Of a stretch of DNA of 64,000 nucleotides, positions 6,304 to 22,958 are shown piece by piece. The notes beneath the pieces were generated by a model, which had not been told where the DNA came from, did not search any database, and worked only from the letters and a program-made list of their open reading frames with translations. The DNA comes from Streptomyces sp. B1I3. Its GTDB lineage: Bacteria > Actinomycetota > Actinomycetes > Streptomycetales > Streptomycetaceae. The stretch is from positions 6,346,501 through 6,410,500 of the forward strand of contig NZ_JAUSYD010000001.1 of assembly GCF_030816615.1 (NCBI RefSeq), read 5' to 3'. How positions within the stretch are numbered: position 1 is the first letter of the stretch; each line of letters opens with the position of its first letter. A program made the position numbers and the translations under genes.

Positions 6304-7956
6304 TCAGCGCGCGACGTCCGGGCCCCAGTACGGACCGTCCGCCTCCCGCACCCGGCCGTCCTCCTCCACCACCACGAAGCGGTCGAAGGTGCGGGCGAAC
6401 CAGCGGTCGTGCGTGACCGCGAGGACCGTGCCCTCGAAGCGTTCCAGGGCGGATTCCAGGGCCTCGGCGCTGTGCAGGTCGAGGTTGTCGGTCGGCTCGT
6501 CCAGCAGGAGCAGCGTGGAGCCCTGGAGTTCCAGCAGGAGGATCTGGAACCGCGCCTGCTGGCCGCCCGACAGCTGGTCGAAGCGCTGGTCCCCGTGTGC
6601 CTGGAGCTCGTACCGGCGCAGGACCGAGACGGCTGCCCCCCGGTCCCGCCCCTCCCGGTCGCCGTCACCCCGGCCCAGTACCTCCACCAGCGTGCGGCCC
6701 GCCAGGTCGGGCCGCGCCTGGGTCTGTGCGAACCAGCCCGGCCGCACCCGCGCGCCCAGCCTGGCCACCCCGGTGTGGCCGACCGGTTCGCCGTGGCGTG
6801 CCGGATCGTGCAGATCCTGCTCGCTCCCGCCGGCCGCGAGCAGCCGCAGCAGGTGCGACTTGCCCGTACCGTTCGAACCGAGTACGGCCACCCGCTCGCC
6901 GAAGTAGACCTCCAGGTCGAACGGCTTCGTGAGCCCGGAGAGTTCGAGCGCCTCGCAGCGGACGGCCCGTACGCCGGTGCGGCTCCCGCGCAGCCTCATG
7001 CGGACGTTCTGCTCGACCGGCCGCTCCGGCGGCGGGCCGGCCTCCTCGAACCGGGCGAGCCGCGTCTGCATGGCGCGGTACTTCCCGGCCATCGAGGCGG
7101 AGGCCTTGGCCTGCTGCTGGAGCGTGCGGACCAGGTTCTTGAGCCGCTGGTGCTCCTCGTCCCAGCGCCGGTGCAGCTCGTCCAGACGTTCGAGACGGGA
7201 CTGCCTCGCGGTGTAGTAGTCCCGGAATCCGCCGCCGTGCACCCAGACGCCGTTCGCCTCCAGGGTGAGGACGCGGGTGGCGGTGGCCGCCAGCAGTTCG
7301 CGGTCGTGGCTGATGTAGAGCACGGTCTTGCGGGACGCGGCCATCATCTCCTCGAGGTGGCGCTTGCCCGGTACGTCGAGGTAGTTGTCCGGCTCGTCCA
7401 GCAGCAGCACCTGGGCGTTGCCGCGGAACAGCGCCTCGAGCGCGAGACGCTTCTGCTCGCCGCCGGACAGGGTCCGCAACTCCCTGGACCTGGCCCGTTC
7501 GAAAGGGAGCCGCAGCGCCGCCCCGGTGACCAGGTCCCATTCCACCTCGGCGTCGTAACCACCGGTCTCCGCCCATTGCGAGAGCGCTTCCGCATAGCGC
7601 ATCTGCACGGCTTCGCTCTCGCTCTCCAGCATGGCCAATTCTGCGCTCTCCATGGCCGAAAATGCCTGTTTCAATTCCGGCCTGGACAGTGAGACGAGAA
7701 ATTCGAGCACGGTGGTCGCGTCGCGCACGGAGCCGACGAACTGGGGCATGACCCCGAGCCCGCCCACCGTGCGCACCGTCCCGGAATGAGCCTTCAACTC
7801 GCCTGTGATCAGGCGGAACAGCGTGGTCTTCCCCATTCCGTTGGCTCCGATGAGAGCGACCTTGTCGCCGTCACCGACACGGAAGGAAGTGTCATGAAAA
7901 AGCATCCGGCCATCCGCCAGCCAGTACTCCAGACCGGAAACTTCCAAGAACCCCAC
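6304..7956 (-). CDS. ABC-F ATPase, probable ribosome-protection (self-resistance) protein
   Basis: A 550-residue soluble protein with two ABC ATPase domains and no membrane segment, as in ABC-F proteins that act on the ribosome. Domain 1 has Walker A GANGMGKTT, signature LSGGEQKR and Walker B LLLDEPDNYLD. Domain 2 has GSNGTGKSH, LSGGQQAR and LLLDEPTDNLD. Between them is the charged two-helix linker (about 240-320: RLERLDELHRRWDEEHQRLKN and on) that reaches toward the peptidyl-transferase or exit-tunnel region in resistance ABC-Fs. It starts at GTG 7956 with GAGGGG upstream. It is divergent from a RiPP-like cluster, so it may protect the producer from the cluster's product. A housekeeping role is possible but less suggested by the location. 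Confidence 0.88.
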   Translation of the reverse strand: MGFLEVSGLEYWLADGRMLFHDTSFRVGDGDKVALIGANGMGKTTLFRLITGELKAHSGTVRTVGGLGVMPQFVGSVRDATTVLEFLVSLSRPELKQAFSAMESAELAMLESESEAVQMRYAEALSQWAETGGYDAEVEWDLVTGAALRLPFERARSRELRTLSGGEQKRLALEALFRGNAQVLLLDEPDNYLDVPGKRHLEEMMAASRKTVLYISHDRELLAATATRVLTLEANGVWVHGGGFRDYYTARQSRLERLDELHRRWDEEHQRLKNLVRTLQQQAKASASMAGKYRAMQTRLARFEEAGPPPERPVEQNVRMRLRGSRTGVRAVRCEALELSGLTKPFDLEVYFGERVAVLGSNGTGKSHLLRLLAAGGSEQDLHDPARHGEPVGHTGVARLGARVRPGWFAQTQARPDLAGRTLVEVLGRGDGDREGRDRGAAVSVLRRYELQAHGDQRFDQLSGGQQARFQILLLELQGSTLLLLDEPTDNLDLHSAEALESALERFEGTVLAVTHDRWFARTFDRFVVVEEDGRVREADGPYWGPDVAR

Positions 7957-8158: not shown

Positions 8159-8311
8159 ATGGAATCCAACGCCCAGCGTCCGGTGAACGAGGAGACCCCC
8201 GAGCTGCGCCAGCAGGACGGCGACACCTCGGGTCCGGAGCTCGAGACCGACGGTCTGGTCTTCAAGCGCGAGCTGCTCAACGAGTTCCTCGGCGGACGCG
8301 TCCGCAGCTGA
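8159..8311 (+). CDS. Putative RiPP precursor peptide, 50 residues
   Basis: A short gene starting at ATG 8159 with ACGAGGGGAA ideally placed upstream. It encodes 50 residues: an acidic, Gln/Glu/Pro-rich first 32, then an amphipathic helix-like stretch (F35-K-R-E-L-L-N-E-F-L44), then G45-G46 and R-V-R-S. The hydrophobic residues at -12 (Phe35), -7 (Leu40) and -4 (Phe43) before the double Gly match the spacing of double-glycine leader peptides. The implied core is only four residues. There is no Cys, Tyr, Trp or His, which excludes lanthionine, thiazole and biaryl chemistry. It is followed by modification genes, all on the same strand. The precursor role is inferred from size, leader motif and context; no homologue was recognised. 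Confidence 0.72.
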   Translation: MESNAQRPVNEETPELRQQDGDTSGPELETDGLVFKRELLNEFLGGRVRS

Positions 8312-8414
8312 CCGAAGCGCCACCGGGCTCCGGCAGACGCAGGGCCGGGGCCCGGTGGTGTGCGACATCGGGCCGACGAGGCGGAACGAAGGTGCCGACA
8401 CGGAGCGGGGGGCG

Positions 8415-9956
8415 GTGGTCGACGTGCGGACGGACGAGACCGGCGAGGGGAAGCGCGGCCCCCGCCCGTTCACCGTGGACATCGACGCCTGGCCGCTCAG
8501 TCTGGACCCGTACCACGTCGTGGACTTCAACCAGGCGCTCGTCCTCGACGCGCTCGTCGACCCACTCACCCGCGAGGACCCGCTCGACCCGGGGGTCGCG
8601 CTGCCCTCGGCCCTGAGCTCGCTCGACCCCCTGGACGACGGACGGACCTGGCTGCTGCGCCCGGCGCCCGGTCAGATCTGGGACGACGGCACACCCGTCC
8701 GCCCCCAGGAGATCGCGGCCGGGATCCACCGGGCCTGGGGCCCCACCGGGCTCGTGCTGCCCGACGGGTACGCCACCCACGACAGCGGTCCGGGCGGCGG
8801 CGCCCGGTCGCCGGTCACCGCACGCGTCGTCGCCGGCGACGGCGGAGCCGTCACCGGGCGCACGGTGATCGAGGTGCGGTCCTCCCTGGCGCTGCCCTAC
8901 CTCGCCGGGCTCCTGGCGTTCCCGGGCGCGGCCCCCGTGCGGGAGGAGGGACACGGCTGGACGGCCAGCGGGCCCTACCGCCCGGTGAGCGCCGACCGCC
9001 GGCTGGGCAGGATCGAGCTGCGCCGCAAACCGTCCCGCAGGACCGGCCCCGGGACACCCGCAACCGTCGTCTTCCAGGTGCACCGCGAACGCGCGCGGGC
9101 ACTCGCCGCGTTCGACGAAGGACTGCTCGACCTCTCGCTCAACACCGGTCTGCCGCCGGCGGACTTCGGCCGGCTCGCAGCCCTGCCGCACGCGACGGTA
9201 CGCACCCTGTCCATGGCCTGTCAGCTGTGGGTGCGCCCCGGCACCGACTCCGTCCTGGACACCGCTGCCGGACGGCGCGCGTTCGGCGACGGCTTCGACC
9301 GGGAGGCGGTCTCCGCCCGGCTGCAGCGGGCCGTGGTGCCGTTGCACCGGTACAGCGGGCTGTGGGACACGCACCGGCCGGCCCCTGGGATGCCCGACAT
9401 CGCGACGCCGCCGCCCCGCCGGCTTCCGCCGTCCGGCCGCCGCGCGGAACTGACCCTCACCTACGCGGACTTCCCGCCCAACGACCGGGTCGTCGCGGCC
9501 CTCGCCGCCGACATCGAAGCCCGCCTCGGCCATCGTGTCCATCCGCGCCCCCTGACCTACCGCGCGTTCGCGAAGGCCGTCACAGCCCTCGACTACGAAC
9601 TGCTGTACTGCATCAATCCGGCGCCCCTGGCGCACGTGGCCGGCTACCTCACCCAGTTCCACAGCGCCGCGGCCACCGGCAGAGCGCTCGGGCTGCGTGA
9701 CGCGGAAGTGGACGCGGCCCTCGACCGCGCCCTGCGCACGCCGGGGGCCGAGGCCTCCGCCCGGGCCTGGCAGCAGGCCGAGGCGGCCGTCCTGAGCCGG
9801 GCCCCCGTGGTGCCGCTCTTCCAGGTCAACAGCGTCACCCTGCACCGGCCCGGCTCCCCGCCACCCGCGGTGGCCGCCACCGGAGCCATCGACCTGGACC
9901 GTGCCGCCGGCCCCGCCGCGCCCCACACCCACGACCGGAAGGTCCTCTCCGCATGA
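8415..9956 (+). CDS. Family-5 solute-binding-fold protein, no signal peptide, in RiPP cluster
   Basis: About 513 residues with the SBP_bac_5 (peptide/nickel-binding) fold. Supporting segments are the N-terminal SLDPYHVVDFNQALVLDALVDPLTRED, the characteristic WLLRPAPGQIWDDGTPVRPQEIAAGIHRAW, a central ASGPYRPV segment, and a C-terminal lobe. No Sec or Tat signal and no lipobox Cys are seen, so it is probably cytoplasmic, unlike transport partners, and no ABC permease gene is nearby. GTG 8415 is preferred (GGAG nine bases upstream); GTG 8355 is an alternative. It overlaps the next gene by ATGA. It may bind the peptide intermediate or precursor, which is inference. It could instead be a periplasmic binder with a missed export signal, but the N-terminus does not look so. 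Confidence 0.72.
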   Translation: MVDVRTDETGEGKRGPRPFTVDIDAWPLSLDPYHVVDFNQALVLDALVDPLTREDPLDPGVALPSALSSLDPLDDGRTWLLRPAPGQIWDDGTPVRPQEIAAGIHRAWGPTGLVLPDGYATHDSGPGGGARSPVTARVVAGDGGAVTGRTVIEVRSSLALPYLAGLLAFPGAAPVREEGHGWTASGPYRPVSADRRLGRIELRRKPSRRTGPGTPATVVFQVHRERARALAAFDEGLLDLSLNTGLPPADFGRLAALPHATVRTLSMACQLWVRPGTDSVLDTAAGRRAFGDGFDREAVSARLQRAVVPLHRYSGLWDTHRPAPGMPDIATPPPRRLPPSGRRAELTLTYADFPPNDRVVAALAADIEARLGHRVHPRPLTYRAFAKAVTALDYELLYCINPAPLAHVAGYLTQFHSAAATGRALGLRDAEVDAALDRALRTPGAEASARAWQQAEAAVLSRAPVVPLFQVNSVTLHRPGSPPPAVAATGAIDLDRAAGPAAPHTHDRKVLSA

Positions 9957-10708
9957 CGAACACGACCACGGGCAGGGCCCATGCCTACCGGGCGGCGGAC
10001 CGGACCCCGCCGGAACTGGCCGCCCTCGGCGCCCTCCTGCGCCGCGACCCCGCCCGCCCGGTCCACCTCGACGGATTCCTGCCCGCCGAGCGGGCGGACC
10101 GCCTGGGCGATGCGGTCCGCGCGCTCCCCCGATGGGCGTCGTCGGCCGTGGTGTGGACCGAGGACCGGAGCTCCACCGTCAAGGTCACCCCGCAGGAGTG
10201 GCGGGCCGCGGAACCCGGCCGGCGGGCCGCGATCCGTGACGTCGCCCAGGACATCCCCGCCCTGTTCGACGGGGACTTCACCTACCCGGCCGCGTACCGG
10301 GAGGAGCTCTCCGACTTCTTCGTCTTCGCCGGCATGGGGCCCGTCCTGCGCACCCGGCTCGCCCGGTGGGTGGCACCGGACGGCCCGATCACCACCAACG
10401 TCGAATTCGCCCGCTACGGCCGGGACGACCAGCTCGGCGAGCACTCCGACGCGGAGTCCGACACCCTCTTCGTCCTCAACCTCTACCTCGATCCCGGATT
10501 CCGGGAGGCGGACGGCGGCGTACTCGGGTTCCGCAACGAGGCGGGGGAGGAGTTCCGCATGCCGCCCCGCTTCAACAGCGTCTCCGTGGTGCCGATCCGG
10601 CCGGGATGCGTGCACTGGGTCGAACGGTGGCGGACCGGACGCATCGGCCGGCACACCGTCAGCATCGCCGTGACCCCGGCCCCCACGACGAACGCCGAGG
10701 TGAAGTGA
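9953..10708 (+). CDS. 2OG-Fe(II) oxygenase (prolyl-4-hydroxylase-like fold), first of two
   Basis: A 251-residue protein with a double-stranded beta-helix dioxygenase core. The facial triad is visible as His164-x-Asp166 (EHSDAESDTLFVLNLYLD) and His221 (PGCVHWVERW), with Arg233 or a nearby Arg as the 2-oxoglutarate anchor (GRIGRHTVSIAV). Before the distal His is the segment RFNSVSVVPIRPGCVHWV, shared with the second oxygenase at 12749, so the two are paralogues with limited identity. It probably hydroxylates, or otherwise oxidises, a residue of the precursor peptide. It overlaps the upstream gene by four bases (ATGA), and the radical SAM gene starts two bases after its stop. This implies translational coupling. 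The substrate is inferred. Confidence 0.85.
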   Translation: MTNTTTGRAHAYRAADRTPPELAALGALLRRDPARPVHLDGFLPAERADRLGDAVRALPRWASSAVVWTEDRSSTVKVTPQEWRAAEPGRRAAIRDVAQDIPALFDGDFTYPAAYREELSDFFVFAGMGPVLRTRLARWVAPDGPITTNVEFARYGRDDQLGEHSDAESDTLFVLNLYLDPGFREADGGVLGFRNEAGEEFRMPPRFNSVSVVPIRPGCVHWVERWRTGRIGRHTVSIAVTPAPTTNAEVK

Positions 10709-10710
10709 CC

Positions 10711-12702
10711 ATGGCAGTAAGTGCTGGGAACGCTCCCGGGACGAAGAGCGCGGGGACCTCCACGAGCGGCGCGGACGGTGCGCGGTCCGTGGTGCTCGCC
10801 TTCCCGCCGCTCGTCGAGTCCAGCTTCGGCCGCTACTTCCCCTCCGTCGCCGCACTCGCCGGATACCTGGACAGCCGCGGGGTCACCACGCGGCAGTGGG
10901 ACCTCAACGAGGAGTTCGCCCTGCACCTCCTCGAACCGGCCCACCTGCAGGCGGCCGGCGAGGGCAGGCTCACCGGCCTCGAGGACCACTCACCGGAGGC
11001 GATGAGCGCGGTCGCCGGGCGTTGGCTCGCCGGTCACCGCGACACGCTCTTCGACGACGAGGGCCGTCACGCCTTCGCCGCCTCGGCCGGTCCCGCCTAC
11101 CTGCTCTCCGCCCTCGCACAGCCCTACCTCATCGATCCGGAACCGCAGTGGCTCGGCGACGCCGCGCTCCTGCGGTCCGCGCCCACGCTCGTCTACCGCA
11201 CCTACTACGCCCGCCTCGGCCTGGCCTCCCGCATTCCCGCGGACGCCTGCCTCATCGGCATCTCCGTCCCCATGGGACCGCAGCTGGTTCCGGCGCTCCT
11301 GCTGGCCGAGGCCGTCAAGGAGGTCCGCCCCGACGTACGCGTCGTGCTCGGCGGGCCCACGCTGTCGCTCATGCAGGAGGAGGACCTCACCACTCTGCTC
11401 GCCACCCACCGGCAGGTGGACGCGGTCGTCAGGTTCGACGGCGAGACGCCGCTCGCCGCCCTGTGCTCCCACGCACGCGAGGGCGGCTGGCGTCCCGGCG
11501 AGGTGGCGGGAGTGTCCTCCTGGTCGGGGCAGGGCGTCACGCACGTACCGCCCGGTCCCGGCCTGCACCCCAACGTGCTGCCGCCCGCGGCGTACGACCA
11601 CGAGCTCCTCGGCAGGCTCGTCGCCCCCGAGATCGGCATCTCCCAGGCGCGCGGCTGCTACTGGGGCAAGTGCGACTACTGCGACTTCGTCGAGCTCTAC
11701 GACGGCAGCCCGCCCTACCGCGGACGCTCGGTGAAGACCTTCATGGCCGAGCTGGAGCACCAGGTCCGCTCGCACGGCGCCCGCCACTTCGAGCTGATCA
11801 CGGAGTCCATCCCGCCCGCGTTCGCCCGGCGCTTCTCCCAGGCGGTCATCGACCGAGGGCTGGACATCGTCTGGAACTCCTTCGCCATGGTCGACCGGCG
11901 CTTCGACGCCGAACTCCTGCAGCTCATGGCCAGGGCCGGGTGCGAGTACCTCGTCATCGGCATGGAGACCACCAACACCCGCGTGCTGAACCTCGTCCAC
12001 AAGTCGGCCGACCGCGAGGAGAACCTGCGCTTCATCCGCGAGGCGCACAGCGCGGGGATGAAACTGCGGATCAACCTCATTCCCGACCTGCCCTCCACCA
12101 CCCGCGAGGAAGCTCTGGAGTCGCTCCGGGACGTCGCCGAACTCGCCGATCTCGTCGACTCGTTCACCGTGTTCCCCTTCGAGGCGACCCGGTCGTCCGA
12201 AGTCGGCCGCAACCCCGAGCGCTTCGGGCTGGTGATCGCCGACTCCGGCACGGGCACCGCCAACCAGGCGCAGTACGCCCTCAACCACCTGGGCAACATC
12301 GATCCGGCGATGACCGACGAACAGCGCCGCGGTGTCCACGAGGTGTACCAGGACTTCGCCGTCCAGCACGGCTCCGGTTACATGCGGGTGACCGGCTCGG
12401 ACTTCCTCGGGCGCCTCCCTGCCCCGGACGAGCCGTTCCGCCTCGGCACCGAGTACCTGGACGTCCTGCGGCGCGGGGAGGCACTGGTCGTCACCCACGT
12501 GCTGCGCCGCGAACGCACGGTCCTGCCCGCCGCCGTCGCCACCGGACTGACCCGCTGGCTGGACGGATCACCGCTGACCCGTCAGGACCTCGCCCACTCC
12601 TACGGGGACGACGGGGCGCGACGGGTCGTCGAGCAACTGGTCGACGCCCGGATGCTGATGACGGCCGCCGGGGCCGTCGACAACGAACCCGCCGTCGTGT
12701 GA
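10711..12702 (+). CDS. B12-binding radical SAM enzyme, RiPP-maturation type
   Basis: A 663-residue protein. Residues about 25-290 form an N-terminal cobalamin-binding-like domain (VVLAFPPLVESSFGRYFPSV; VRVVLGGPTLS; DAVVRFDGETPL). The radical SAM barrel begins at GISQARGC, with cluster cysteines Cys316, Cys321 and Cys324 in a CX4CX2C spacing instead of the textbook CX3CX2C. Further conserved parts are the GMETTN and RINLIPDLP segments. The last 80 residues (THVLRRERTVLPAAVATGLTRW ...) look like a winged-helix, PqqD/RRE-like domain. B12 radical SAM enzymes of this layout usually C-methylate unactivated carbons of peptide residues, and a few form rings. A Val or Arg of the core would be a natural target; this is inference. 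It is in a coupled operon. Confidence 0.88.
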   Translation: MAVSAGNAPGTKSAGTSTSGADGARSVVLAFPPLVESSFGRYFPSVAALAGYLDSRGVTTRQWDLNEEFALHLLEPAHLQAAGEGRLTGLEDHSPEAMSAVAGRWLAGHRDTLFDDEGRHAFAASAGPAYLLSALAQPYLIDPEPQWLGDAALLRSAPTLVYRTYYARLGLASRIPADACLIGISVPMGPQLVPALLLAEAVKEVRPDVRVVLGGPTLSLMQEEDLTTLLATHRQVDAVVRFDGETPLAALCSHAREGGWRPGEVAGVSSWSGQGVTHVPPGPGLHPNVLPPAAYDHELLGRLVAPEIGISQARGCYWGKCDYCDFVELYDGSPPYRGRSVKTFMAELEHQVRSHGARHFELITESIPPAFARRFSQAVIDRGLDIVWNSFAMVDRRFDAELLQLMARAGCEYLVIGMETTNTRVLNLVHKSADREENLRFIREAHSAGMKLRINLIPDLPSTTREEALESLRDVAELADLVDSFTVFPFEATRSSEVGRNPERFGLVIADSGTGTANQAQYALNHLGNIDPAMTDEQRRGVHEVYQDFAVQHGSGYMRVTGSDFLGRLPAPDEPFRLGTEYLDVLRRGEALVVTHVLRRERTVLPAAVATGLTRWLDGSPLTRQDLAHSYGDDGARRVVEQLVDARMLMTAAGAVDNEPAVV

Positions 12703-12748: not shown

Positions 12749-13498
12749 ATGCGCAGTACCACCGAGCAGCCGACGCACCCGGAGCTCGCCGCGGCAGTGC
12801 CGTTCATCGCCCCCGAGTACCTGACCGGCGACTTCTTCGCCAGGATGGGTGACTGGTACCACGGCGACGAACCCCACCCCCTGCACCTGCACAACTTCCT
12901 GCGGCCCGAGCTCGCGGCCGCGGTGTCCACGGCCGTGCGCGGCATCCCCGACTGGTCACCGCACGCAGCGCTCTACGAAGGCCGCATGGGCAAGACGGAG
13001 TTCTGGGACGAGGAGGCGGACGCCGGCCACGAGGTCACCATCAGCCAGCTCGCCGTACGGGACATTCCCGCACTGCTCGACAGCGGGGCCATGGACCCCG
13101 CCCACCAGCAGGTCATCGAGCAGTTCCTCGCCTTCGCCCTGCTGTCCGACACACTCCGCGACTGGATCAAGGCCGGCACCGGTCTGGAACTGCGCAAGCG
13201 GGCCTTCATGGAGATCGCCGCCTACCGCCGCTCCGACGGGCTCGGCGCACACCAGGACCTGGTCCCCGGCCGGGTGCTGGCGATGAACTTCTACCTCGAC
13301 GAGAACTACCGCGCCGAGCACGGCGGCCGGCTCAGCTTCCGTGACGGCGAAGGCCGTGAGCACCACATCGAGCCCGTCTACAACAGCCTCTCCATCATTC
13401 CGATCCGCGAGGACTGCTGGCACTGGGTCGAGCCCTTCAGCAGCGACACGGTCGGCCGGTACACCATCGCCATCGGGCAGCATCTGGAGGGGAGCTGA
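12749..13498 (+). CDS. 2OG-Fe(II) oxygenase, second of two
   Basis: A 249-residue paralogue of the oxygenase at 9953. The iron triad is His168-x-Asp170 (GAHQDLVPGRVLAMNFYLDENY) and His225 (REDCWHWVEPF), with Arg237 as the likely 2-oxoglutarate ligand (GRYTIAIG). It shares the EPVYNSLSIIPIRE segment with its paralogue, but the N-terminal 90 residues differ, so the two probably act at different positions of the peptide. It starts at ATG 12749 with GAGGAGAA upstream, 46 bases after the radical SAM stop. The presence of two oxygenases points to at least two oxidative steps. The substrate is unproven. Confidence 0.85.
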   Translation: MRSTTEQPTHPELAAAVPFIAPEYLTGDFFARMGDWYHGDEPHPLHLHNFLRPELAAAVSTAVRGIPDWSPHAALYEGRMGKTEFWDEEADAGHEVTISQLAVRDIPALLDSGAMDPAHQQVIEQFLAFALLSDTLRDWIKAGTGLELRKRAFMEIAAYRRSDGLGAHQDLVPGRVLAMNFYLDENYRAEHGGRLSFRDGEGREHHIEPVYNSLSIIPIREDCWHWVEPFSSDTVGRYTIAIGQHLEGS

Positions 13499-13524: not shown

Positions 13525-14526
13525 GTGGCGGTCCATGAGACCGAGTGCGAGACGCTCCTGAACCTCGGTGACCGGCTGCTGCGCGTCGGCGGCCCCCAGC
13601 CGCGGGTCCGCGCGGCACTGGACCGGCTGCGCACGGGAACCACGCAGGACCGGCTGGCCGCGGACTGGGCCCCCGGTGCGGTCGCGGCGCTGCTCGCCGA
13701 ACTCCGCGACCAGGGCTGGCTCACCGGGGAGAGCGAAGAGGAACGTGCCGCCTTCGCCGGGGAGACGTACGAGCGCCAGGTCGACCACCTGGCACTCTTC
13801 GGCCCCGACACGGCCGCCGCGCAGCGCCGGCTGCTCGGGTCCCGGGTCGCCGTCATCGGCCTGGGAGGCATCGGCGGCATCGTCACCCAGCACCTGGTGG
13901 GAGCGGGCGTCAGCCGGTTCTGGCTCGTCGACGACGACTGCGTGGCCGGCCACAACCTCAACCGCCAGTTCACGTACGGGTCACAGGACATCGGCAGTCC
14001 CAAGACCCGGGCGCTCGCCCGCAGTCTGTCCGCCCTGCGGCCCGGCATCCGCACCACCGGCGTACGGAAGCGGATCACGGAGGCCGCCCAGCTCTTCGAC
14101 GAGCTCCCCGGCGACCTGGACCTGGTGATCGTGGCCGCGGACACCCCGCCGGGTCTCCCGGACGTCGTGTGGGAGTGGGCCGTGGCCACGGGCACCCCCA
14201 CGGCCGTCGCGGCTGTCGGTGTCGGCATCGGCTTCTGGGGCCCCGTCCTCGTGCCCGCCCGCGACGGCTGCTGGCCGTGCTTCGAGCGCGGCCGGCGAGC
14301 CGTCCTCACGGGACTGGAACGAACCGTCGAGGACCGATCCGCCGAACCTGCCCCCTTCTCCTTCGGTCCGAGCAATACAGTGATCGCCGCGATGCTCGCC
14401 CATGACGTCGTGGAGTTCCTGTGCAGCGGATCGTGCCCCACCCTGGGCCGCCGTGCCGCGCTGGACTTCCGGCGCCAACGGATCACCCACAGCGAAGAAA
14501 TGAAGTGCTCGTGTCCGACGACCTGA
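13525..14526 (+). CDS. RRE plus E1/ThiF-type adenylating enzyme, MccB-like
   Basis: At least 333 residues. The N-terminal 80 look like a winged-helix peptide-recognition (RRE) domain, as in MccB and the ThiF-like partners of azoline synthetases. Residues 107-300 form the ThiF/E1 fold: nucleotide loop GLGGIGG (112-118), acidic DDD at 136-138, N-x-x-R-type NLNRQ at 144-148, Lys160, and cysteines CWPC (249-252) with a C-terminal CSC (328-330), probably the structural zinc site. Such enzymes adenylate a peptide carboxylate or side chain. No YcaO partner exists here, favouring MccB-like chemistry. GTG 13525 is the first standard start, but family-like sequence (TLRLLPAV) continues in frame upstream, so a CTG near 13507 or 13495 may be the true start. 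Confidence 0.82.
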   Translation: MAVHETECETLLNLGDRLLRVGGPQPRVRAALDRLRTGTTQDRLAADWAPGAVAALLAELRDQGWLTGESEEERAAFAGETYERQVDHLALFGPDTAAAQRRLLGSRVAVIGLGGIGGIVTQHLVGAGVSRFWLVDDDCVAGHNLNRQFTYGSQDIGSPKTRALARSLSALRPGIRTTGVRKRITEAAQLFDELPGDLDLVIVAADTPPGLPDVVWEWAVATGTPTAVAAVGVGIGFWGPVLVPARDGCWPCFERGRRAVLTGLERTVEDRSAEPAPFSFGPSNTVIAAMLAHDVVEFLCSGSCPTLGRRAALDFRRQRITHSEEMKCSCPTT

Positions 14527-15902
14527 TAACGCAGCAGAAGCAGAAGGCGGCGGGCCGCAGGAAGGAGTCGTTCAGGGGCACCGGCTTCCTGCGCCTGTGG
14601 TCGGGCGAGACGGTGTCCGTGGCGGGCACCGAAGTCACCTTCATGGCGATCGGGATCGCCGCGGCGACCACCCTCGCCGCGACGCCCTGGCAGATGGGTG
14701 TGCTGGAGGCCGCGGAGTCCGCCGCGGTCCTGCTGCTCGGCCTGTCCGCGGGCGTGTGGGCGGACCGCTACGAGCGGCGCCGCATCATGCTCATCGCCAA
14801 CCTGGCACGCTGCGTACTGATCCTCTCCGTCCCGCTGCTGTACTGGCTGGACGCACTGACCATGCCCGTGCTGTACGCGGTCGTCTTCCTCGTCGGTGCC
14901 CTGACGCTGCTCTTCGACAGCGCGATGTCGGCCTATCTGCCACGGCTGTTGCCCCGCAGCCAACTGGAACGCGCCAACTCCTGGATGGAAGCCAGCACGT
15001 CGGTGGGCTCGGTCGCCGGACCGGGACTCGCCGGAGTGCTCATCCAGGTCATGAGCGCCCCGGTGGCCCTGGTCGTCGACTCCGTCTCCTACCTGGTCAG
15101 TTACCTCACCCTGTCGCGGCTGCCCCAGGCCCCGCCGTCCGCCGACCCGGGGACCCCGGACGCGGAGCCGCAGGAATCGCACCGGCACGCCGTCCTCAAG
15201 GGCCTGCACCTGCTGCGCGTCGACCGCATCCAGCGGCCGATGATCCTCGCCGCCGCGCACTTCAACATCTTCCACACGATGTTCTTCGCCGTGCACACGC
15301 TCTTCGTGTTGCGTGTACTCGACTTCAGCCCCGGCCTCCTCGGCGCCACCAGCATGGCGGGAGGTGTCGCAGGACTCCTCGGCGCGTCCTTCACGCCGGC
15401 GCTCACCCGTCTTTTCGGCCAGGGCCGCACCCTGATCATCGTCTACGCCGCCCCGGGCCTCTCGGCCCTCCTGGTCCCGCTGGCCCACCACACGGGCGAC
15501 CGGGGCCTCGCCATCGCCCTGGTCTCGCTGTCGACCTTCACGTGGACGTTCGCCGTGGTGGTCAATCTCGTCATCAGCGAGACGGTGAAGCAGACCCTGG
15601 TCCCCGACCACCTCCTGGGCCGGGTCACCGCCACCACACGCTTCGTCAGCTGGGGGGTCCAGCCGGTCGGCGCGCTGCTCGGCGGCTGGCTCGGCGGACG
15701 GCTGGGGCTCTCGGAGGTCATGGTCGTCTCGGCGGCCGGCCTGTTCACGTCCGCGCTCTGGCCGCTCCTCAGCCCGGTACGCAATCTGGTCGGACCGCCT
15801 GACGACGACACGGACGGCGGCGTGACGGACGGCGACGGCGGGGACGTCGACGGCGCGAGCGGCGCGACGAGCGAGCCGTCGCCGCCGCCCGAGAAGACCT
15901 GA
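14511..15902 (+). CDS. MFS transporter, probable exporter of the RiPP product
   Basis: About 463 residues with 12 predicted membrane helices. It carries the MFS loop between helices 2 and 3 (GVWADRYERRRIMLIAN) and the enterobactin-exporter-like subgroup features common in Streptomyces biosynthetic clusters (SYLPRLLPRSQLERANSWMEASTSVGSVAGPGLAG). The C-terminus is a soluble Asp/Ser-rich tail of about 40 residues. GTG 14511 is used (GTG 14505 is possible); the gene overlaps the E1 gene by 16 bases, so it is translationally coupled. It probably exports the mature peptide. The substrate is inferred from operon position only. Confidence 0.85.
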   Translation: MSDDLITQQKQKAAGRRKESFRGTGFLRLWSGETVSVAGTEVTFMAIGIAAATTLAATPWQMGVLEAAESAAVLLLGLSAGVWADRYERRRIMLIANLARCVLILSVPLLYWLDALTMPVLYAVVFLVGALTLLFDSAMSAYLPRLLPRSQLERANSWMEASTSVGSVAGPGLAGVLIQVMSAPVALVVDSVSYLVSYLTLSRLPQAPPSADPGTPDAEPQESHRHAVLKGLHLLRVDRIQRPMILAAAHFNIFHTMFFAVHTLFVLRVLDFSPGLLGATSMAGGVAGLLGASFTPALTRLFGQGRTLIIVYAAPGLSALLVPLAHHTGDRGLAIALVSLSTFTWTFAVVVNLVISETVKQTLVPDHLLGRVTATTRFVSWGVQPVGALLGGWLGGRLGLSEVMVVSAAGLFTSALWPLLSPVRNLVGPPDDDTDGGVTDGDGGDVDGASGATSEPSPPPEKT

Positions 15903-15950: not shown

Positions 15951-17261
15951 ATGCCCGCGCTCAATCCGATCGGCCGCACCTTGTCCAACGGCCTGCGGGT
16001 GATCGTCTCCAGGGACACCACGGTCCCCGTCGCCGCGGTGTGCCTGTGGTACCGGGTGGGATCGTGTGACGAGCCCGCCGGCCGGACAGGTCTCTCCCAC
16101 CTGTTCGAACACCTGATGTTCCAGGGATCGACGCACGTCCCGGCCAACGGCCACACCGCCGCCGTGGAGGAGGCGGGCGGTCTGACCAACGCCTCCAGCG
16201 GCTTCGAACGCACCACTTTCTACACGGTCGTCCCCGCCGGCCAGCTGGAACTGGTGCTGTGGCTGGAGGCCGACCGGATGGGAGGCATGCTCGACGCCTT
16301 CACGCCCGAGGGCCTCGGCAACCAGCGGGACGTCGTGCTCAACGAGCGGCGGGAGCGGTACGACAACGTGCCCTACGGCACCGGATGGGAGCAGCTGGTC
16401 GCCATGACGTTCCCTCCCGGTCACCCCTTCCGCGAGTTGCCGGCAGGCAGCCCCCGGGACCTGGCCGCCGTCACGGAGGACGACTGCCGGGCGTTCTTCC
16501 GCCGGCACTACGCCCCCGACCGGGCGATCCTCACGGTCGTCGGCGACGTGGAACCGGACGCGGTGGTGGATCTCGCGGAACGCCACTTCCGTCACATAGC
16601 GCCCTCCGCCTCCGGCCGCTGGGCACCCCCGGCGTGCTCGCGCACCCCCGCGCTCCCGGCCGAGACCCGGCGCCACGCCGAGGCGGCGGTGCCCGGTCCG
16701 GCGTTCATGGCCGCCTACCAGCTGCCCGCCCGTGGTGGACGTGCCTACGCCGCCACGGACCTCGCTCTGACGCTGCTGGGGGGGATGAGCAGCAGCGGAC
16801 TGCACGACCGGCTCGTGCGGCGGGACCAGCTCGCCCACAGCGCCCGCTTCTCCCTGTTGCCCCTGCGGTCGGCACCCTCCCTGGGCCGGCTGGACGTGCG
16901 CGCCGTGCCCGGCACCGGCCTCGACGTCGTGGAGAAGGTGGTCGACGAGGAGATCGAGCGCCTCGTCGACCACGGGGTCGCCGACGCGTCGCTGCGGGGG
17001 GCCAAGGCCCAGATCCGGCGCGAGTGGTACGACCGCCTCGCCCATCCGGGCAGCCGGGCCGACGAACTGTGCGCCCAGGAGGCTCACTTCGGCGACGCGG
17101 CGCTGGCCGACGCCCATCTCGGTGAGGCCTTGGACATCTCCGCGGCCGAGGTGCGGCAGGCCGCGGCCGACTGGCTCGCCCCCGAACGGCGCTCGGTCCT
17201 GACCTATGAACCCGCGGGTGCCACGGACCCGGCCCGAGCCGCGCGAGGAGCCGCCGCATGA
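15951..17261 (+). CDS. M16B zinc peptidase, catalytic subunit
   Basis: A 436-residue protein of the half-size (M16B) insulinase family. The inverted zinc motif HXXEH is at His50-Leu-Phe-Glu53-His54 (GLSHLFEHLMFQG), and the third zinc ligand is a Glu near 133-136 (VVLNERRE). No signal peptide. It begins at ATG 15951 with AGGAGCAGAAG upstream and overlaps the second M16 gene by ATGA. M16B enzymes work as two-subunit chambers, with one subunit supplying zinc and the other an Arg/Tyr pair; the next gene supplies that partner. It is the obvious candidate for leader removal. M16 pairs have this role in other RiPP pathways, but cleavage after Gly46 here is a guess. Confidence 0.9.
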   Translation: MPALNPIGRTLSNGLRVIVSRDTTVPVAAVCLWYRVGSCDEPAGRTGLSHLFEHLMFQGSTHVPANGHTAAVEEAGGLTNASSGFERTTFYTVVPAGQLELVLWLEADRMGGMLDAFTPEGLGNQRDVVLNERRERYDNVPYGTGWEQLVAMTFPPGHPFRELPAGSPRDLAAVTEDDCRAFFRRHYAPDRAILTVVGDVEPDAVVDLAERHFRHIAPSASGRWAPPACSRTPALPAETRRHAEAAVPGPAFMAAYQLPARGGRAYAATDLALTLLGGMSSSGLHDRLVRRDQLAHSARFSLLPLRSAPSLGRLDVRAVPGTGLDVVEKVVDEEIERLVDHGVADASLRGAKAQIRREWYDRLAHPGSRADELCAQEAHFGDAALADAHLGEALDISAAEVRQAAADWLAPERRSVLTYEPAGATDPARAARGAAA

Positions 17262-18646
17262 CCGCCCCCGCCACCACCGGCCCGCGCCCCGCCCGTCCTG
17301 CCACGGCGCCCGTCCGGCCGTGGCACTTCCCCCGGCTGCACAGGAGCGTCCTGGACAACGGCCTCACGCTGCTGACCTGCGACCGGCCGGGTCAGGAAGT
17401 GCTGAGCGCCGAGATCATCGTCGCCGTGCCGCTCGCTCTCGAACCACGCGAGCTGGAGGGCGTCGTGGGCATCACGGCCAGCGCCCTGGCCGAGGGCGTA
17501 CCGGGACTGGACTCGCTCGACTTCATCCACGCGCTGGAACACTGCGGAGCCACCCTCGGCGTCGGCGCCGAGCACACCGGCCTCCGGATCACCCTCGACG
17601 TCCCCGGTACCCATCTGGAGGAAGCGCTGGGCCTGCTCACCTCGGCTCTGCGCACCCCCCTGTTCCCCGCTCGATCCGTCGAACGCCTGGTCGGAGCACG
17701 CGCGAACGCGTACGTCCGCAACCGGGCCGACGCCGAGCGCCGCGCGTCCATGGAACTGCACACCGCCCTGTTCGACGCGGCGGACCGCCGTTCGCGGCCG
17801 GCCCGCGGCACCGACGTGACGGTCCGCGGGATCGACCGGGACGCGGTCGCCGCCTTCCACCACCGCTTCGTCCGCCCGGCCGTCTCCACCGTCGCGCTCG
17901 CGGGCGACCTGGCCAGGTACGACGTCGACGCCGTGCTGCGCCGCGTGCTGGGCACGTGGGAGGGCGAGCCGGGCACCCTTGAGGCACCCCCGTCCCCGCC
18001 GGTGCGCGACGAGGCGCCGGTGATCCTCGTCGACCGGCCAGGGGCCCTCCAGACCCGGCTGGTCCTCGGGCGGGTCGCACCGGGCCGTGCCACGCCCGAC
18101 TGGGACGCGCTGCTGATCGGCAACCACAGCCTCGGCGGCTCGGTCAACGCACGGCTCGACCGTGAACTACGCGAGGCCAAGGGCTACACGTACGGGTTCC
18201 ACAGCCGCCTGCTGGGTGTGGTCCAGGACTCCCTCGCCGTCGTGACGGGGGCGGTGGAGACATCGGTGACGGCGCCCGCGCTGAACGACATCACCCGCAT
18301 CCTGACCGAGGTCGCCGACCGCGGGATCACGGAGGCGGAGCGCGCGGCCGCGGTGGCGCAGATCGTGGACGCGGCGCCGCTGCGCTACCTCACCGCGTCG
18401 GCGGTCGCGGAGGAGATGGCCCTGCTGGTCCTCGACGGCCGGGACCCCGCGAGCCTGCCGGACGCCTTCCGGCGCGCGGCGGCGATCACCACCGAGGAGG
18501 CCTCCGGCGCCCTGCGTTCAGCCTTCCCTCCGGACGGCATGGTGACGGTCGCGATCGGCGACGTCTCGGTGTTCGGTGAGGAACTCCGGGGGAACGCCAC
18601 GGCTCCGGTGCACCTCCTGCGAACGGGGTCCTCACGGCTCCCGTAG
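17258..18646 (+). CDS. M16B peptidase-like subunit without zinc motif
   Basis: A 462-residue M16-fold protein lacking HXXEH: the equivalent region reads LEPRELEGVVGITASALAEG. It keeps the C-terminal substrate-binding Arg/Tyr region (LDRELREAKGYTYGFHSRL), as expected for the non-catalytic partner of a heterodimeric M16B protease. An N-terminal 25-residue Pro/Ala-rich extension precedes the fold. It is coupled to the catalytic subunit by an ATGA overlap, so equal amounts are made. It is the last clear gene of the RiPP-like operon; after 63 bases comes soxR, probably an independent unit. Confidence 0.88.
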   Translation: MTAPATTGPRPARPATAPVRPWHFPRLHRSVLDNGLTLLTCDRPGQEVLSAEIIVAVPLALEPRELEGVVGITASALAEGVPGLDSLDFIHALEHCGATLGVGAEHTGLRITLDVPGTHLEEALGLLTSALRTPLFPARSVERLVGARANAYVRNRADAERRASMELHTALFDAADRRSRPARGTDVTVRGIDRDAVAAFHHRFVRPAVSTVALAGDLARYDVDAVLRRVLGTWEGEPGTLEAPPSPPVRDEAPVILVDRPGALQTRLVLGRVAPGRATPDWDALLIGNHSLGGSVNARLDRELREAKGYTYGFHSRLLGVVQDSLAVVTGAVETSVTAPALNDITRILTEVADRGITEAERAAAVAQIVDAAPLRYLTASAVAEEMALLVLDGRDPASLPDAFRRAAAITTEEASGALRSAFPPDGMVTVAIGDVSVFGEELRGNATAPVHLLRTGSSRLP

Positions 18647-18709
18647 GTCCCCAGGGCGACATGGCGGAGCCCGCTCCATGGGAGGGGCGAGGTCGTTAGG
18701 GTGGGAGGG

Positions 18710-19183
18710 GTGCCCCAGATCCCGCAGACACTCCACGAACTCACCGTCGGCCAGCTCTCCGCGCGCAGCGGCGCGGCGGTGTCGGCCCTGCACTTCTACG
18801 AGTCCAAGGGCCTGATCACGAGCCGCCGCACCAGCGGCAATCAGCGCCGCTACACCAGGGACGCCCTGCGCCGGGTCGCGTTCGTGCGCGCGGCCCAGCG
18901 GGTGGGTATCCCGCTGGCGACGATCCGGGACGCGCTCGCCGAGCTGCCCGAGGAGCGCACACCGAACCGCGACGACTGGGCACGGCTCTCCCGGGCGTGG
19001 CGCGCGGAGCTTGACGAACGGATCAAGCAACTGGGGCGGCTGCGGGACCATCTCACCGACTGCATCGGCTGCGGCTGCCTGTCGCTGGAGACGTGCGTGC
19101 TGTCCAACCCCGACGACATCACCGGTACACGCATGGCGGGGTCGCGTCTGATGCCCGAGCTGATGGCGCCGGACCGTTCCTGA
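18710..19183 (+). CDS. soxR: SoxR, redox-sensing MerR-family regulator
   Basis: A 157-residue MerR-type regulator. Residues 8-75 form the HTH ([44 protein letters not shown]). A dimerisation helix follows, then the diagnostic [2Fe-2S] motif [12 protein letters not shown]. Streptomyces SoxR responds to redox-active small molecules such as the cell's own pigments and activates a small regulon. The start is GTG 18710 ([14 protein letters not shown]), inside gggagggg; the earlier in-frame GTG at 18701 is too close to any ribosome site. It is next to the RiPP cluster but nothing in the sequence links them, and no SoxR box was recognised nearby. Confidence 0.93.
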
Positions 19184-19864: not shown

Positions 19865-20066
19865 GGCACTGCCACCTCCGTCGCTCGTACTTCGGCGTCA
19901 AGGGATGGACGTACGACTGCCCGATTCGGCTCCATCGAAAGGTGATTGCGTCCGCGGAGTGAGACGGCACCTGTCGGGCGAGGTGCGGAGGCGCCGTGCG
20001 CGGTGTGTCGTGCGCCGCCCTGCGGACCGGAGTGTGGCGGTTCGGAAAAAGTGACCGATGTTCACC

Positions 20067-20092
20067 TTACCGGCGGTACAACCCGCCGGTAA
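20067..20092. promoter_or_regulatory. Perfect 10-bp inverted repeat upstream of the acylase gene
   Basis: TTACCGGCGG (20067-20076) and CCGCCGGTAA (20083-20092) are exact reverse complements around a six-base spacer (tacaac). The element ends 34 bases before the acylase start at 20127, overlapping the likely transcription start. The size and symmetry fit an operator for a dimeric repressor. No regulator gene is adjacent. Confidence 0.65.
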
Positions 20093-20126
20093 CCTCCGGC
20101 GCATCGGTCTCACCGGAGGAGCACGC

Positions 20127-22958
20127 ATGCCCCCACGCACCCGCACGCTCTCGGCCGCCGCAGTCGCGGCCGTCCTCGCTCTCGGTACCTCCCTGCTCGC
20201 CGCCACGGCCCCCCGGGCCGAAGCCGCGCAACCGGATCCCGTCGCCGCCACCGACTTCTGCCAGGGCCGGTGCGCCGACATCCTGCCCCCGGGCGAGAAC
20301 GGCAACGCCACCCTCGCCGAGATCCTCGGCAACAAGGCGTTCGGCACCCACCCCGCCCACAGCGACGACCAACTCGACCGCTACAACGGGCTGGTGGCCG
20401 GCCACACGACCCTCACCGACCAGAAGCTGACCGACTTCTTCGGCGACGCCTCCTTCGGCGTCGCCGCGGACCAGGTCGAGTCCGTCACCTCGCCCCGCGA
20501 GGACGTCACCATCACCCGCGACAAGAAGAGCGGCGTCCCGCACATCAAGGGAACGACCCGCTACGGCACCGAGTTCGGCGCCGGCTTCGCGGCCGGACAG
20601 GACCGGCTCTGGCTGATGGACCTCTTCCGGCACATCGGACGAGGCGAGCTGACCCCGTTCGCCGGAGGAGCCCTCGCCAACCAGGGCCTCGAGCAGCAGT
20701 TCTGGCCCCAGGCCCCGTACACCGAGGCGGATCTCGAGGCCCAGGTCGAGCGGATCAGGACCACCGAGGGGGCGCACGGTGAGCAGGCGATGGCCGACGC
20801 GCAGGCCTACGTCGACGGCATCAACGCCTATCGCGAGAAGTCGAAGAAGGGCCGCTACTTCCCCGGTGAGTACGTCCTCACGGGAAAGATCGACGCCATC
20901 ACCAACGCGGGCGAGATCCAGCCGTTCAAGCTGACCGACCTGATCTCGATCGCCTCGGTCGTCGGCGGACAGTTCGGCGGCGGAGGCGGCGGCGAGGTGC
21001 AGGCCGCACTGTCACTGCTCGCCGCCCAGCAGAAGTACGGAGTCCAGGAAGGCACCCGCGTCTGGGAGTCCTTCCGCCAGCGCAACGATCCCGAGGCCGT
21101 CCTCACCGTCCACGACGGCACCTCCTTCCCGTACGCGGGCAAGCCCGACGAGGCCCGCGGCGCCGCACTCCCCGACCCGGGCACCGTCACCCCGGAGCCC
21201 TTGATCCACGACCGCACCGGCGCGGCGGGCACGGACAGGAAGGACCCGGTCGACGCACCGGCCCGCCTCGAACCGGCCCAGGGAATGTACGACGACGGGG
21301 TCATCCCGGAGGGCTCGCTCCCGGGATCCGGTGAGGGCGCCCAGAAGCGAGGCATGTCCAACGCACTCCTGGTGTCCGGCGAACACACCGCGAGCGGCAA
21401 CCCGATCGCCGTCATGGGCCCCCAGACCGGCTACTTCGCCCCGCAGCTGATGATGCTCCAGGAGATCCAGGGCCCCGGCATCAGCGCGCGAGGCGTCTCC
21501 TTCGCCGGGGTCGGCATGTACATCCAGATGGGCCGAGGCCAGGACTACGCCTGGAGCGCCACCTCGGCGGCCCAGGACATCACCGACACGTACGCCGTCG
21601 AGCTCTGCGAACCCGACGGCTCCGCCCCCACCAAGGACTCCACGCACTACCGCGACCACGGCGCCTGCACGGCCATGGAGAAACTGGAGCGCGTCAACTC
21701 CTGGAAGCCCACCGTCGCCGACTCGACGGCCAAGGGCTCCTACCGGATGCGGGTGTGGCGCACGGACTACGGCATCGTCACCCACCGCGCCACGGTCGAC
21801 GGCAAGCCCGTCGCCTACACCTCGCTGCGCACCACCTACCGGCACGAGGCCGACTCGATCATCGGCTTCCAGCTGCTCAACGACCCGGCGTACGTGACGG
21901 ACGCGGCGTCCTTCCAGCGGGCGGCGAGCCACATCGACTACGCCTTCAACTGGTTCTACGCGGACTCGCGCACCGCGGCCTTCTACAACAGCGGCATGAA
22001 CCCGGTGCGCGCCGCCGGGGTCGACCCCGCGCTGCCGGTCAAGGCCGAGAAGGCGTACGAGTGGCAGGGCTTCGACCCGGCCGCCAACACCAGCGACTAC
22101 ACCCCGTTCGCCGCACACCCCCACTCCAGCGGACAGGACTACTACATCTCCTGGAACAACCGTCAGGCCAAGGACTACGCCACCGCCGCCTTCGGCTTCG
22201 GGTCGGTGCACCGGGGCGACCTGCTCGACGACCGGGTGGCCGCACTCGTCGAGGACGGCGGAGTGACCCGCGCCTCCCTCACCCGTGCCATGGCGGAGGC
22301 CGCCGTCACCGACCTGCGGGGCGAGCAACTGCTGCCGGAGCTCCTGAAGGTGATCCGCTCCCGGCCGGTCACCGACCCGGAGCTCAACGCGGTGGTCCAG
22401 CAGCTGGACTCCTGGCGGGCGGCCGGTGCGCAGCGCAAGGAGACCCGCGAGGGCTCGCACACGTACACGCACGCGGACGCGGTACGGATCATGGACGCGT
22501 GGTGGCCGAAGCTCGTCGAGGCGGAGTTCCGTCCGGGTCTGGGTGACGACCTCTACGCGGCGTTCACCGCGAGCCTGGCCACCGACGAGTCCCCGGCCGC
22601 GAGCCACGGGCCGAGCGGGGCGCACAGCGGGTCGGCCTTCCAGTACGGGTGGTGGGGGTTCGCCGACAAGGACCTGCGCCAGGTCCTCGGGCAGCCCGTC
22701 GCGGGGCCGCTGGCGAGGACGTACTGCGGCAACGGCGATCTGGCCACCTGTCGCGACGCACTGCTGACCACGCTGAAGCAGGCGGCCGCGGTGCCCGCCA
22801 CGACGGTCTACCCGGGCGACGACAGCTGCACGGCGGGGGAGCAGTGGTGCACCGACGCCATCGTGCACCGCCCGCTCGGCGGGATCGGCCACAAGATGAT
22901 CCACTGGCAGAACCGGCCGACCTACCAGCAGGTCGTGGAGTTCCCCTCCCACCGCTGA
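20127..22958 (+). CDS. Secreted penicillin-acylase-family N-terminal nucleophile amidase
   Basis: A 943-residue preproprotein. Signal peptide: basic MPPRTRTLS then an Ala/Leu core to APRAEA. The alpha part includes GFAAGQDRLWLMDLFRHIGRGEL. A spacer rich in Gly/Glu precedes the self-cleavage site, where Ser411 (GM-S-NALLVSG) would be the N-terminal nucleophile of the beta subunit. Downstream GPQTGYFAPQLM matches the family's oxyanion region. The length is larger than penicillin G acylase (about 850) and similar to Streptomyces homologues acting on acyl-homoserine lactones, lipopeptides or penicillin V. The substrate is not readable. ATG 20127 follows CCGGAGGA. A perfect inverted repeat lies 34 bases upstream. 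Confidence 0.88.
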   Translation: MPPRTRTLSAAAVAAVLALGTSLLAATAPRAEAAQPDPVAATDFCQGRCADILPPGENGNATLAEILGNKAFGTHPAHSDDQLDRYNGLVAGHTTLTDQKLTDFFGDASFGVAADQVESVTSPREDVTITRDKKSGVPHIKGTTRYGTEFGAGFAAGQDRLWLMDLFRHIGRGELTPFAGGALANQGLEQQFWPQAPYTEADLEAQVERIRTTEGAHGEQAMADAQAYVDGINAYREKSKKGRYFPGEYVLTGKIDAITNAGEIQPFKLTDLISIASVVGGQFGGGGGGEVQAALSLLAAQQKYGVQEGTRVWESFRQRNDPEAVLTVHDGTSFPYAGKPDEARGAALPDPGTVTPEPLIHDRTGAAGTDRKDPVDAPARLEPAQGMYDDGVIPEGSLPGSGEGAQKRGMSNALLVSGEHTASGNPIAVMGPQTGYFAPQLMMLQEIQGPGISARGVSFAGVGMYIQMGRGQDYAWSATSAAQDITDTYAVELCEPDGSAPTKDSTHYRDHGACTAMEKLERVNSWKPTVADSTAKGSYRMRVWRTDYGIVTHRATVDGKPVAYTSLRTTYRHEADSIIGFQLLNDPAYVTDAASFQRAASHIDYAFNWFYADSRTAAFYNSGMNPVRAAGVDPALPVKAEKAYEWQGFDPAANTSDYTPFAAHPHSSGQDYYISWNNRQAKDYATAAFGFGSVHRGDLLDDRVAALVEDGGVTRASLTRAMAEAAVTDLRGEQLLPELLKVIRSRPVTDPELNAVVQQLDSWRAAGAQRKETREGSHTYTHADAVRIMDAWWPKLVEAEFRPGLGDDLYAAFTASLATDESPAASHGPSGAHSGSAFQYGWWGFADKDLRQVLGQPVAGPLARTYCGNGDLATCRDALLTTLKQAAAVPATTVYPGDDSCTAGEQWCTDAIVHRPLGGIGHKMIHWQNRPTYQQVVEFPSHR

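Follow-up and report, generated by a model that had tools for sequence, protein, structure and literature searches.

ThiF-like enzymes of known RiPP pathways adenylate a carboxylate, which is then attacked by a nucleophile of the core peptide; passages of PMC12150305 and PMC12250964 give a thiolactone (GRC), an indolylamide (Ind) and a phosphoramidate (microcin C) as products, and describe enterofaecin as an imide whose structure is unsettled. For MccB, sections of PMC12250964 describe chemistry at a C-terminal Asn via a succinimide. An M16 peptidase adjoins the ThiF-like enzyme in ind (sections of PMC12150305), and the heteromeric M16 pair PttP1/PttP2 acts as a leader peptidase (sections of PMC10885120).

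Here, we analyzed a window of 64,000 nucleotides from Streptomyces sp. B1I3, in which a small ORF (8159-8311) lies in a gene cluster with a ThiF-like (E1) enzyme. Taken as a whole, the observations are probably best explained if the product of this ORF is a ThiF-type RiPP precursor. A divergent ABC-F gene is followed by the precursor, a family-5 solute-binding protein (SBP), a 2OG-Fe oxygenase, a B12-binding radical SAM enzyme (rSAM), a second 2OG-Fe oxygenase, E1, an MFS exporter and an M16 pair:

6304..7956, minus strand: ABC-F ATPase (Pfam ABC_tran), divergent from the precursor; candidate for ribosome self-protection
8159..8311, plus strand: 50-aa precursor peptide with L-x-F-(4)-L-N-E-x-L in its leader and the tail ...GGRVRS
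8255..8290, plus strand: conserved leader block L33-L44 (LVFKRELLNEFL), probable RRE-binding segment
8291..8308, plus strand: candidate core, the variable tail GGRVRS; Arg invariant at the penultimate position, S/T/C/A at the last
8355..9956, plus strand: solute-binding protein family 5 (OppA fold; PF00496), start codon uncertain
9953..10708, plus strand: 2OG-Fe(II) oxygenase 1 (PF13640, 25.4 bits, just below the cutoff of 27; HxD...H)
10678..12702, plus strand: B12-binding radical SAM enzyme (PF02310, PF04055), start codon uncertain
12749..13498, plus strand: 2OG-Fe(II) oxygenase 2 (PF13640/PF13661; HxD...H)
13525..14526, plus strand: E1/ThiF-like enzyme (PF00899) with N-terminal RRE-like domain (~residues 1-62)
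14508..15902, plus strand: MFS exporter (PF07690/PF05977)
15951..17261, plus strand: M16 zinc peptidase (PF00675/PF05193; HxxEH = HLFEH at residue 50), candidate leader peptidase
17258..18646, plus strand: M16 partner subunit (PF05193 only)

The precursor gene heads what is probably one compact operon, because several of the genes overlap by a few bases (e.g. 9953/9956 and 17258/17261). This neighborhood supports an earlier proposal that a RiPP-type precursor adjoins E1 and a B12-radical SAM enzyme here. The Pfam scan took in ten neighbors, from the ABC-F gene at 6304 through a MerR gene (18701-19183); the latter gave no tblastn match in L031-L039 or L059-L061 and was excluded from the cluster parts.

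The translation of 8159-8311(+) is MESNAQRPVNEETPELRQQDGDTSGPELETDGLVFKRELLNEFLGGRVRS*. It confirms the residue positions given in the preliminary description (F35, L40, F43, G45-G46 and the tail R47-V48-R49-S50), and Cys, Tyr, Trp and His are indeed all absent from the 50 residues. A ribosome-binding site (AGGGGAA) lies directly 5' of the ATG. The closest precursor relatives occur in three other Streptomyces genomes; they have a near-equal length, the same start and the block DGLVFKRELLNEFL, with the start codon identical in the window, L031, L033 and L034. Across the six pairs of these four genomes, dN in the last 21 codons is 0.022-0.118 and dS 0.164-0.606; synonymous changes prevail in five pairs, and the sixth shows 4 vs 4 codons. 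Because the start is kept and dS exceeds dN, coding is supported beyond chance: with its ribosome-binding site, kept start and mostly synonymous change in four genomes, the ORF is a real gene. Very probably, its 50 residues are the starting material from which a tiny modified peptide is made.

To place the cluster among relatives, we combined several searches. A scan with the rSAM over one genome per species (84,980 species) returned 11 loci, and E1 and rSAM searches added further Streptomyces loci. Among the 392 genomes searched in the genus, 8 had an rSAM match at E ≤1e-60, and the E1 profile matched 10 at E <1e-100 and 52 at E ≤1e-35; in a phylum sample, the E1 profile matched 2 of 396 genomes, both Streptomyces like the window. 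The 50-residue peptide as query matched 96 of the 392 genus genomes at E ≤1, nearly all by chance, and only four of these matches are convincing (G000, G099, G143, G208). Neither precursor nor rSAM had a match in the plasmid collection. Altogether, we counted 21 clusters: five RVRS-type (the window and L031-L034), six other LxF-type (L035-L039 and L059, with L038 a Corynebacteriales MAG), four methyltransferase-type (L060, L061, L093 and L094, in which a class-I methyltransferase is present and the B12-rSAM found no match), five in which the rSAM was matched twice (L092 and L095-L098) and L117. In L092, Pfam recognized P450 and radical SAM domains, with one B12 domain scoring over the cutoff and one under it. 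Two loci, L040 and L041, were not counted in the family: in the stretch examined, each has a homolog of the rSAM, and neither E1 nor SBP was matched.

Some of these clusters have parts of their own. In L032 (SPB074), the match begins inside the first oxygenase and none of it lies upstream of ~9463; the downstream enzymes remain, and no precursor, SBP or ABC-F match was found in the stretch examined. The cluster at L117:1411-10833, at a contig end, contains E1, SBP, a JmjC/cupin-type oxygenase and an asparagine synthase. At L036:12995-16889, L037:794-4576 and L038:12989-16733 (tails VNRC and HNRS), we observed a carbamoyltransferase and a GDSL-like protein (scoring below the Pfam cutoff) and no M16 match; tblastn detected no 2OG oxygenase in L036 and L037, where the carbamoyltransferase occurs instead. 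This suggests that the VNRC/HNRS-type product may bear a carbamoylated hydroxyl. Proteins of ~440-480 aa follow the MFS gene at L035:14289-15731, L039:14672-16102 and L059:6295-7602; they have no Pfam match, the L035 protein also has no NCBIfam match, and the L035 and L059 proteins are 30% identical.

Including the window, 20 precursors were found in 19 of the 21 clusters (L037 holds two); none was found in L032 or in L117, where it may lie past the contig end. The preliminary description had looked to the last residues for conservation, and here it was borne out: the penultimate residue is Arg in 20 of 20 and the final one C (11), S (7), T (1) or A (1), counts to be read with the kinship of the precursors in mind (4 RVR[S/T], 7 other LxF, 4 near-identical MVHRC and 5 sharing one VARRC tail) and with the LxF-type members having been picked by position and likeness to the known block, which could favor the pattern. 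As a background, 17% of 2,110 small ORFs from 19 family loci have a penultimate Arg and 5% end in R[STC]. The precursors have three kinds of leader, with little in common beyond Arg and a small last residue. LxF-type tails are GGRVRS, GGRVRT, GNRVRS, ANRVRS, AMKHRS, AVKHRS, EVVHRS, AFVNRC, VAVNRC, AMHNRS and VHNYRA; the other two types end in VMVHRC (4) and IVARRC (5). The MVHRC-type precursor, first spotted by eye, was the sole ORF conserved in four of four genomes between E1 and ABC-F in a confirmation scan blind to the ORF ending. For the VARRC type, an ending-blind ORF scan returned nothing under its rules; among 129 stop-to-stop frames compared, its precursor is the only operon-sense frame upstream of the rSAM conserved in five of five genomes, all remaining conserved frames lying on the opposite strand. 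Selection is less clear for this type, since its last 45 codons show 2-14 synonymous vs 0-10 non-synonymous codon differences per pair.

Counted from the C-terminus, R-2, L-7, L-11, F-16 and L-18 occur in all ten ungapped LxF-type precursors (the second one of L037, two residues longer, was excluded), as does E/D at -9, and N-10 occurs in nine. The tail varies, with V/H/N at -3, R/V/K/H at -4, G/N/M/V/F/A at -5 and A/G/E/V at -6. In an alignment of 13 of the 20 precursors, F35 and R49 are the only invariant residues. For leaders of the window's type, L-x-F-(4)-L-N-[E/D]-x-L is thus a probable leader-recognition motif, possibly read by the RRE. Because the variable stretch comprises the last 4-6 residues, a very short core is plausible for family precursors, in line with the earlier suggestion that the modified part is very short. 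L037 holds a VNRC-type cluster and, at 9705-9842, the second, divergent precursor, which ends VHNYRA and lies beside a second B12-rSAM (9893-11950); no E1 of its own was seen. If this precursor is functional, its single YRA ending may indicate that an OH or SH on the last residue is dispensable.

Among PDB entries, MccB is the best sequence match of E1, and GxGGxG, NLNRQ and SFGP-x-N are invariant in 12 of 12 aligned E1 sequences. Residues 2-62 of the AlphaFold model (pLDDT 85.4) form three strands and three helices (b-b-b-a-a-a), which we interpret as a predicted RRE-like domain fused to the ThiF domain. In structural comparison with the PDB, the best seven matches are all MccB (Z 28.1-28.6; rmsd 6.0-6.2 over 310-319 residues), the top one spanning the full length (Z 28.6, residues 1-332), followed by MoeB, ThiF and PaaA. 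Given the high full-length rmsd, the domains in the model seem to be placed differently from those of MccB. Microcin C (MccB; PDB 3h5r, 3h9j, 6om4) offers a close parallel in its RRE-fused ThiF-like enzyme, very short peptide and exporter; it differs in ending with Asn instead of Arg-Ser/Thr/Cys, and the long acidic leader, the oxygenases, the B12-rSAM, the OppA-fold protein and the ABC-F protein set the present cluster apart. PaaA of the pantocin A pathway, which appears among both the sequence and the fold matches of E1, likewise acts on a short core. That core is Glu-Glu-Asn, which is absent from the 20 family tails. The macrocyclases of Ind, GRC and enterofaecin also pair a ThiF-like enzyme with an adjacent precursor (ind additionally with an M16 peptidase and a transporter), but their cores end in Trp...Ile, Glu...Cys or WIVI, and the portions of the literature that describe them mention no cytosolic SBP.

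The second constant element is the OppA-fold protein. Its model (pLDDT 81.2; residues 1-33 below 50) matches Aapf, MppA and OppA with Z ~30 over ~440-460 aligned residues, at 10-19% identity among the 50 matches listed. Unlike OppA and MppA, it has no recognizable signal peptide, and Pfam found no importer genes among the 10 neighbors scanned. A lipobox is present in none of 15 aligned homologs, whose N-termini enter the conserved first strand directly (with starts set by hand, and the L092 and L098 rows beginning at no start codon); in a few, the hydropathy averaged over 12 residues there is close to 1.8. From inspection of these N-termini, the protein appears to be cytosolic. A family-5 SBP occurs in 20 of the 21 family loci (the window's by Pfam) vs 1 of the next 22 E1 loci (L099-L120), and on this basis E1 and SBP, not the rSAM, appear to be the shared core of the family, although the co-occurrence is partly circular, as the profile was built from family members and the single hit, L117, was then admitted for its SBP.

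For the B12-rSAM, the domains suggest a probable C-methyltransferase. Its nearest relatives by score are the B12-rSAM RiPP C-methyltransferases TIGR03975 and ApyD, with the same B12-binding and radical SAM domains; it lies well below both cutoffs (TIGR03975, the closest NCBIfam model, describes a RiPP maturation C-methyltransferase: 89.9 bits, cutoff 281.85). The cluster-binding motif is CX4CX2C (CYWGKCDYC), and ARGCYWGKCDYC is identical in 10 of 10 related loci checked. The L031 enzyme (9959-12046) carries an extra low-complexity stretch of ~30 residues ahead of the radical SAM domain; the frames of the L031 rSAM and the L061 E1 are open, with stops falling outside the gene. The ABC-F protein contains two ABC domains with two Walker A and two signature motifs. 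Its best NCBIfam match is the ribosomal-protection-like NF000355 (268.7 bits, below the cutoff of 380), and homologs of 59-85% identity occur in 10 related clusters, so that ABC-F is present at 11 of 20 loci examined, window included, and in two of the three leader types (no match in VARRC-type loci). This distribution fits self-protection against a ribosome inhibitor, with the caveat of the sub-cutoff score. M16 homologs were matched only in RVRS-type clusters within the stretches examined. In our reading, the sole HxxEH of the M16 partner (residue 91) is off the expected active-site position, and by analogy with PttP1/PttP2 and IndP the pair is a plausible leader peptidase.

From the gene order, the family, the conserved residues and the predicted folds, we infer the following chemical steps, cleavage site and target. 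The N-terminal RRE of E1 would bind the leader motif L-x-F-(4)-L-N-E-x-L, and E1 would adenylate the C-terminal carboxylate of the Arg-[Ser/Thr/Cys] end. The acyl-adenylate would then be captured within the peptide. Our leading guess is a cyclic acyl-guanidine formed via the penultimate Arg, proposed because no other side-chain nucleophile is shared by all members; the idea is a tentative one, drawn from conservation, and backbone-amide or oxazolone-type capture would be an alternative. If functional, the YRA ending without OH or SH makes it more likely that the nucleophile is the Arg guanidine or the backbone. Another possible role of the penultimate Arg is in binding to E1, in activity or in uptake. 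The short tail would be C-methylated by the B12-rSAM and hydroxylated by the two 2OG oxygenases, and the signal-peptide-less OppA-fold protein may bind the short peptide in the cell as a scaffold or self-protection sink. Cleavage by the M16 pair near residues 44-47 would remove the leader, the MFS pump would export the product and the ABC-F protein would protect the ribosome. As M16 is confined to the RVRS type and ABC-F to 11 of 20 loci, the arguments on cleavage and target are not family-wide.

The preliminary description had read the peptide differently, as a double-glycine leader followed by the core RVRS; a C39/PCAT-type peptidase would then cut behind G46. According to sections of PMC10885120, double-glycine-like motifs are GG, GA or GS, and LahT150 is unable to remove leaders without hydrophobic residues at -4, -7 and -12. 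The window peptide does have GG with this spacing, and its genome does hold one C39 domain. Across the family, GG is found in only 2 of 20 precursors, and neither GA nor GS in the other 18; at this position relatives carry GN, AN, AM, AV, EV, AF, VA, VH, VM or IV, with GN and AN already in close relatives, and G45-G46 are among the least constrained positions. The spacing therefore stands for the window peptide and falls as a family pattern: counted from GG, -7 and -12 are conserved in the ten ungapped LxF-type precursors, and -4 is F4, L2, E2, V1, Q1 (hydrophobic in 7 of 10). F35 and L40 are more likely conserved as leader-recognition residues than as a double-glycine signal. Moreover, Pfam found no C39 peptidase among the 10 cluster proteins; the sole match in the genome lies ~646 kb away (action in trans is possible), and the operon has its M16 pair. 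We consider double-glycine processing very unlikely. In the comparison of homologs, which the preliminary description had itself proposed as a test, the last residues are kept and GG is lost. Its further argument, that the lack of Cys, His, Tyr and Trp narrows the chemistry, does not carry over to the family, as relatives end in VNRC, MVHRC, VARRC, KHRS or HNRS.

In another reading, E1 could attach a nucleotide to the C-terminal residue, giving a microcin-C-like Trojan horse against an aminoacyl-tRNA synthetase, and MccB is its closest match in both sequence and fold. An MFS exporter adjoins E1, and MccC is an MFS pump; YejA, like the cluster's OppA-fold protein, is a family-5 SBP. Microcin C enters cells by YejABEF (sections of PMC7136475). 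Against this, none of the 20 precursors ends in Asn, which makes true microcin-C chemistry unlikely; among the 10 proteins scanned, none was recognized as an MccF/MccE-type immunity protein, and ABC-F points to the ribosome. We regard this reading as improbable, and similarly doubt a carrier-peptide pathway, in which the last one or two residues (Arg-Ser/Cys) would be released in a small molecule and the rest reused as a scaffold. Pearlins are made by a pathway of this kind, and it would account for why only R and a small last residue are universal and C-terminal -3 to -6 vary; yet -3 and -4 are nearly fixed per type (RVR, KHR, VHR, VNR, ARR), which suggests that they matter, and Pfam scans recognized no PEARL-type ligase. 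That the peptide is no product precursor at all, being a small regulatory or partner peptide of E1 or a relic, would fit L032, which keeps homologs from mid-oxygenase on, with no precursor, SBP or ABC-F match in the stretch examined. The adjacency of the precursor in 19 of 21 loci and the synonymous excess in the RVRS type (less clear in the VARRC type) make this the hardest reading to credit. An antipain-like Arg-Val-argininal was set aside because relatives carry other residues, antipain being non-ribosomal, and so was thiocarboxylation by E1, no sulfur-transfer partner having been recognized among the proteins scanned.

Returning to the ThiF-type RiPP reading, the family might even constitute a separate RiPP class, a speculative extension, defined by an RRE-E1, a cytosolic OppA-fold binder and X-Arg-[Ser/Thr/Cys] precursors. 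E1 would form a ring (an acyl-guanidine or similar) between the C-terminal carboxylate and the penultimate Arg with the OppA-fold protein holding the tail, yielding tri- to pentapeptide antibiotics acting on the ribosome and diversified by interchangeable 2OG oxygenases, B12-rSAM, carbamoyltransferase, SAM methyltransferase and P450. Our searches of the open-access PMC literature turned up no description of the arrangement, nor any occurrence of four tail strings. The word Streptomyces is absent from the main text of the ThiF-like RiPP review PMC12250964, and a supplementary figure of PMC12150305 is indicated to contain several uncharacterized ThiF network clusters, among which the present group may stand unnamed. 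The family is apparently undescribed; the ThiF-type RiPP kind is already known. If the pathway is correct, it adds a Streptomyces branch to a small set of ThiF-like RiPP pathways, marks the invariant Arg as a likely reactive or recognition residue and provides a case of a peptide-binding fold taken over for use in the cytosol; the linked ABC-F gene would hint at translation as the target. With the conserved ending, genomes can be mined by a simple rule, and the enzyme reaction can be tested directly. Outside the cluster, 20058-22958 encodes a penicillin-amidase-family protein (Pfam PF01804).
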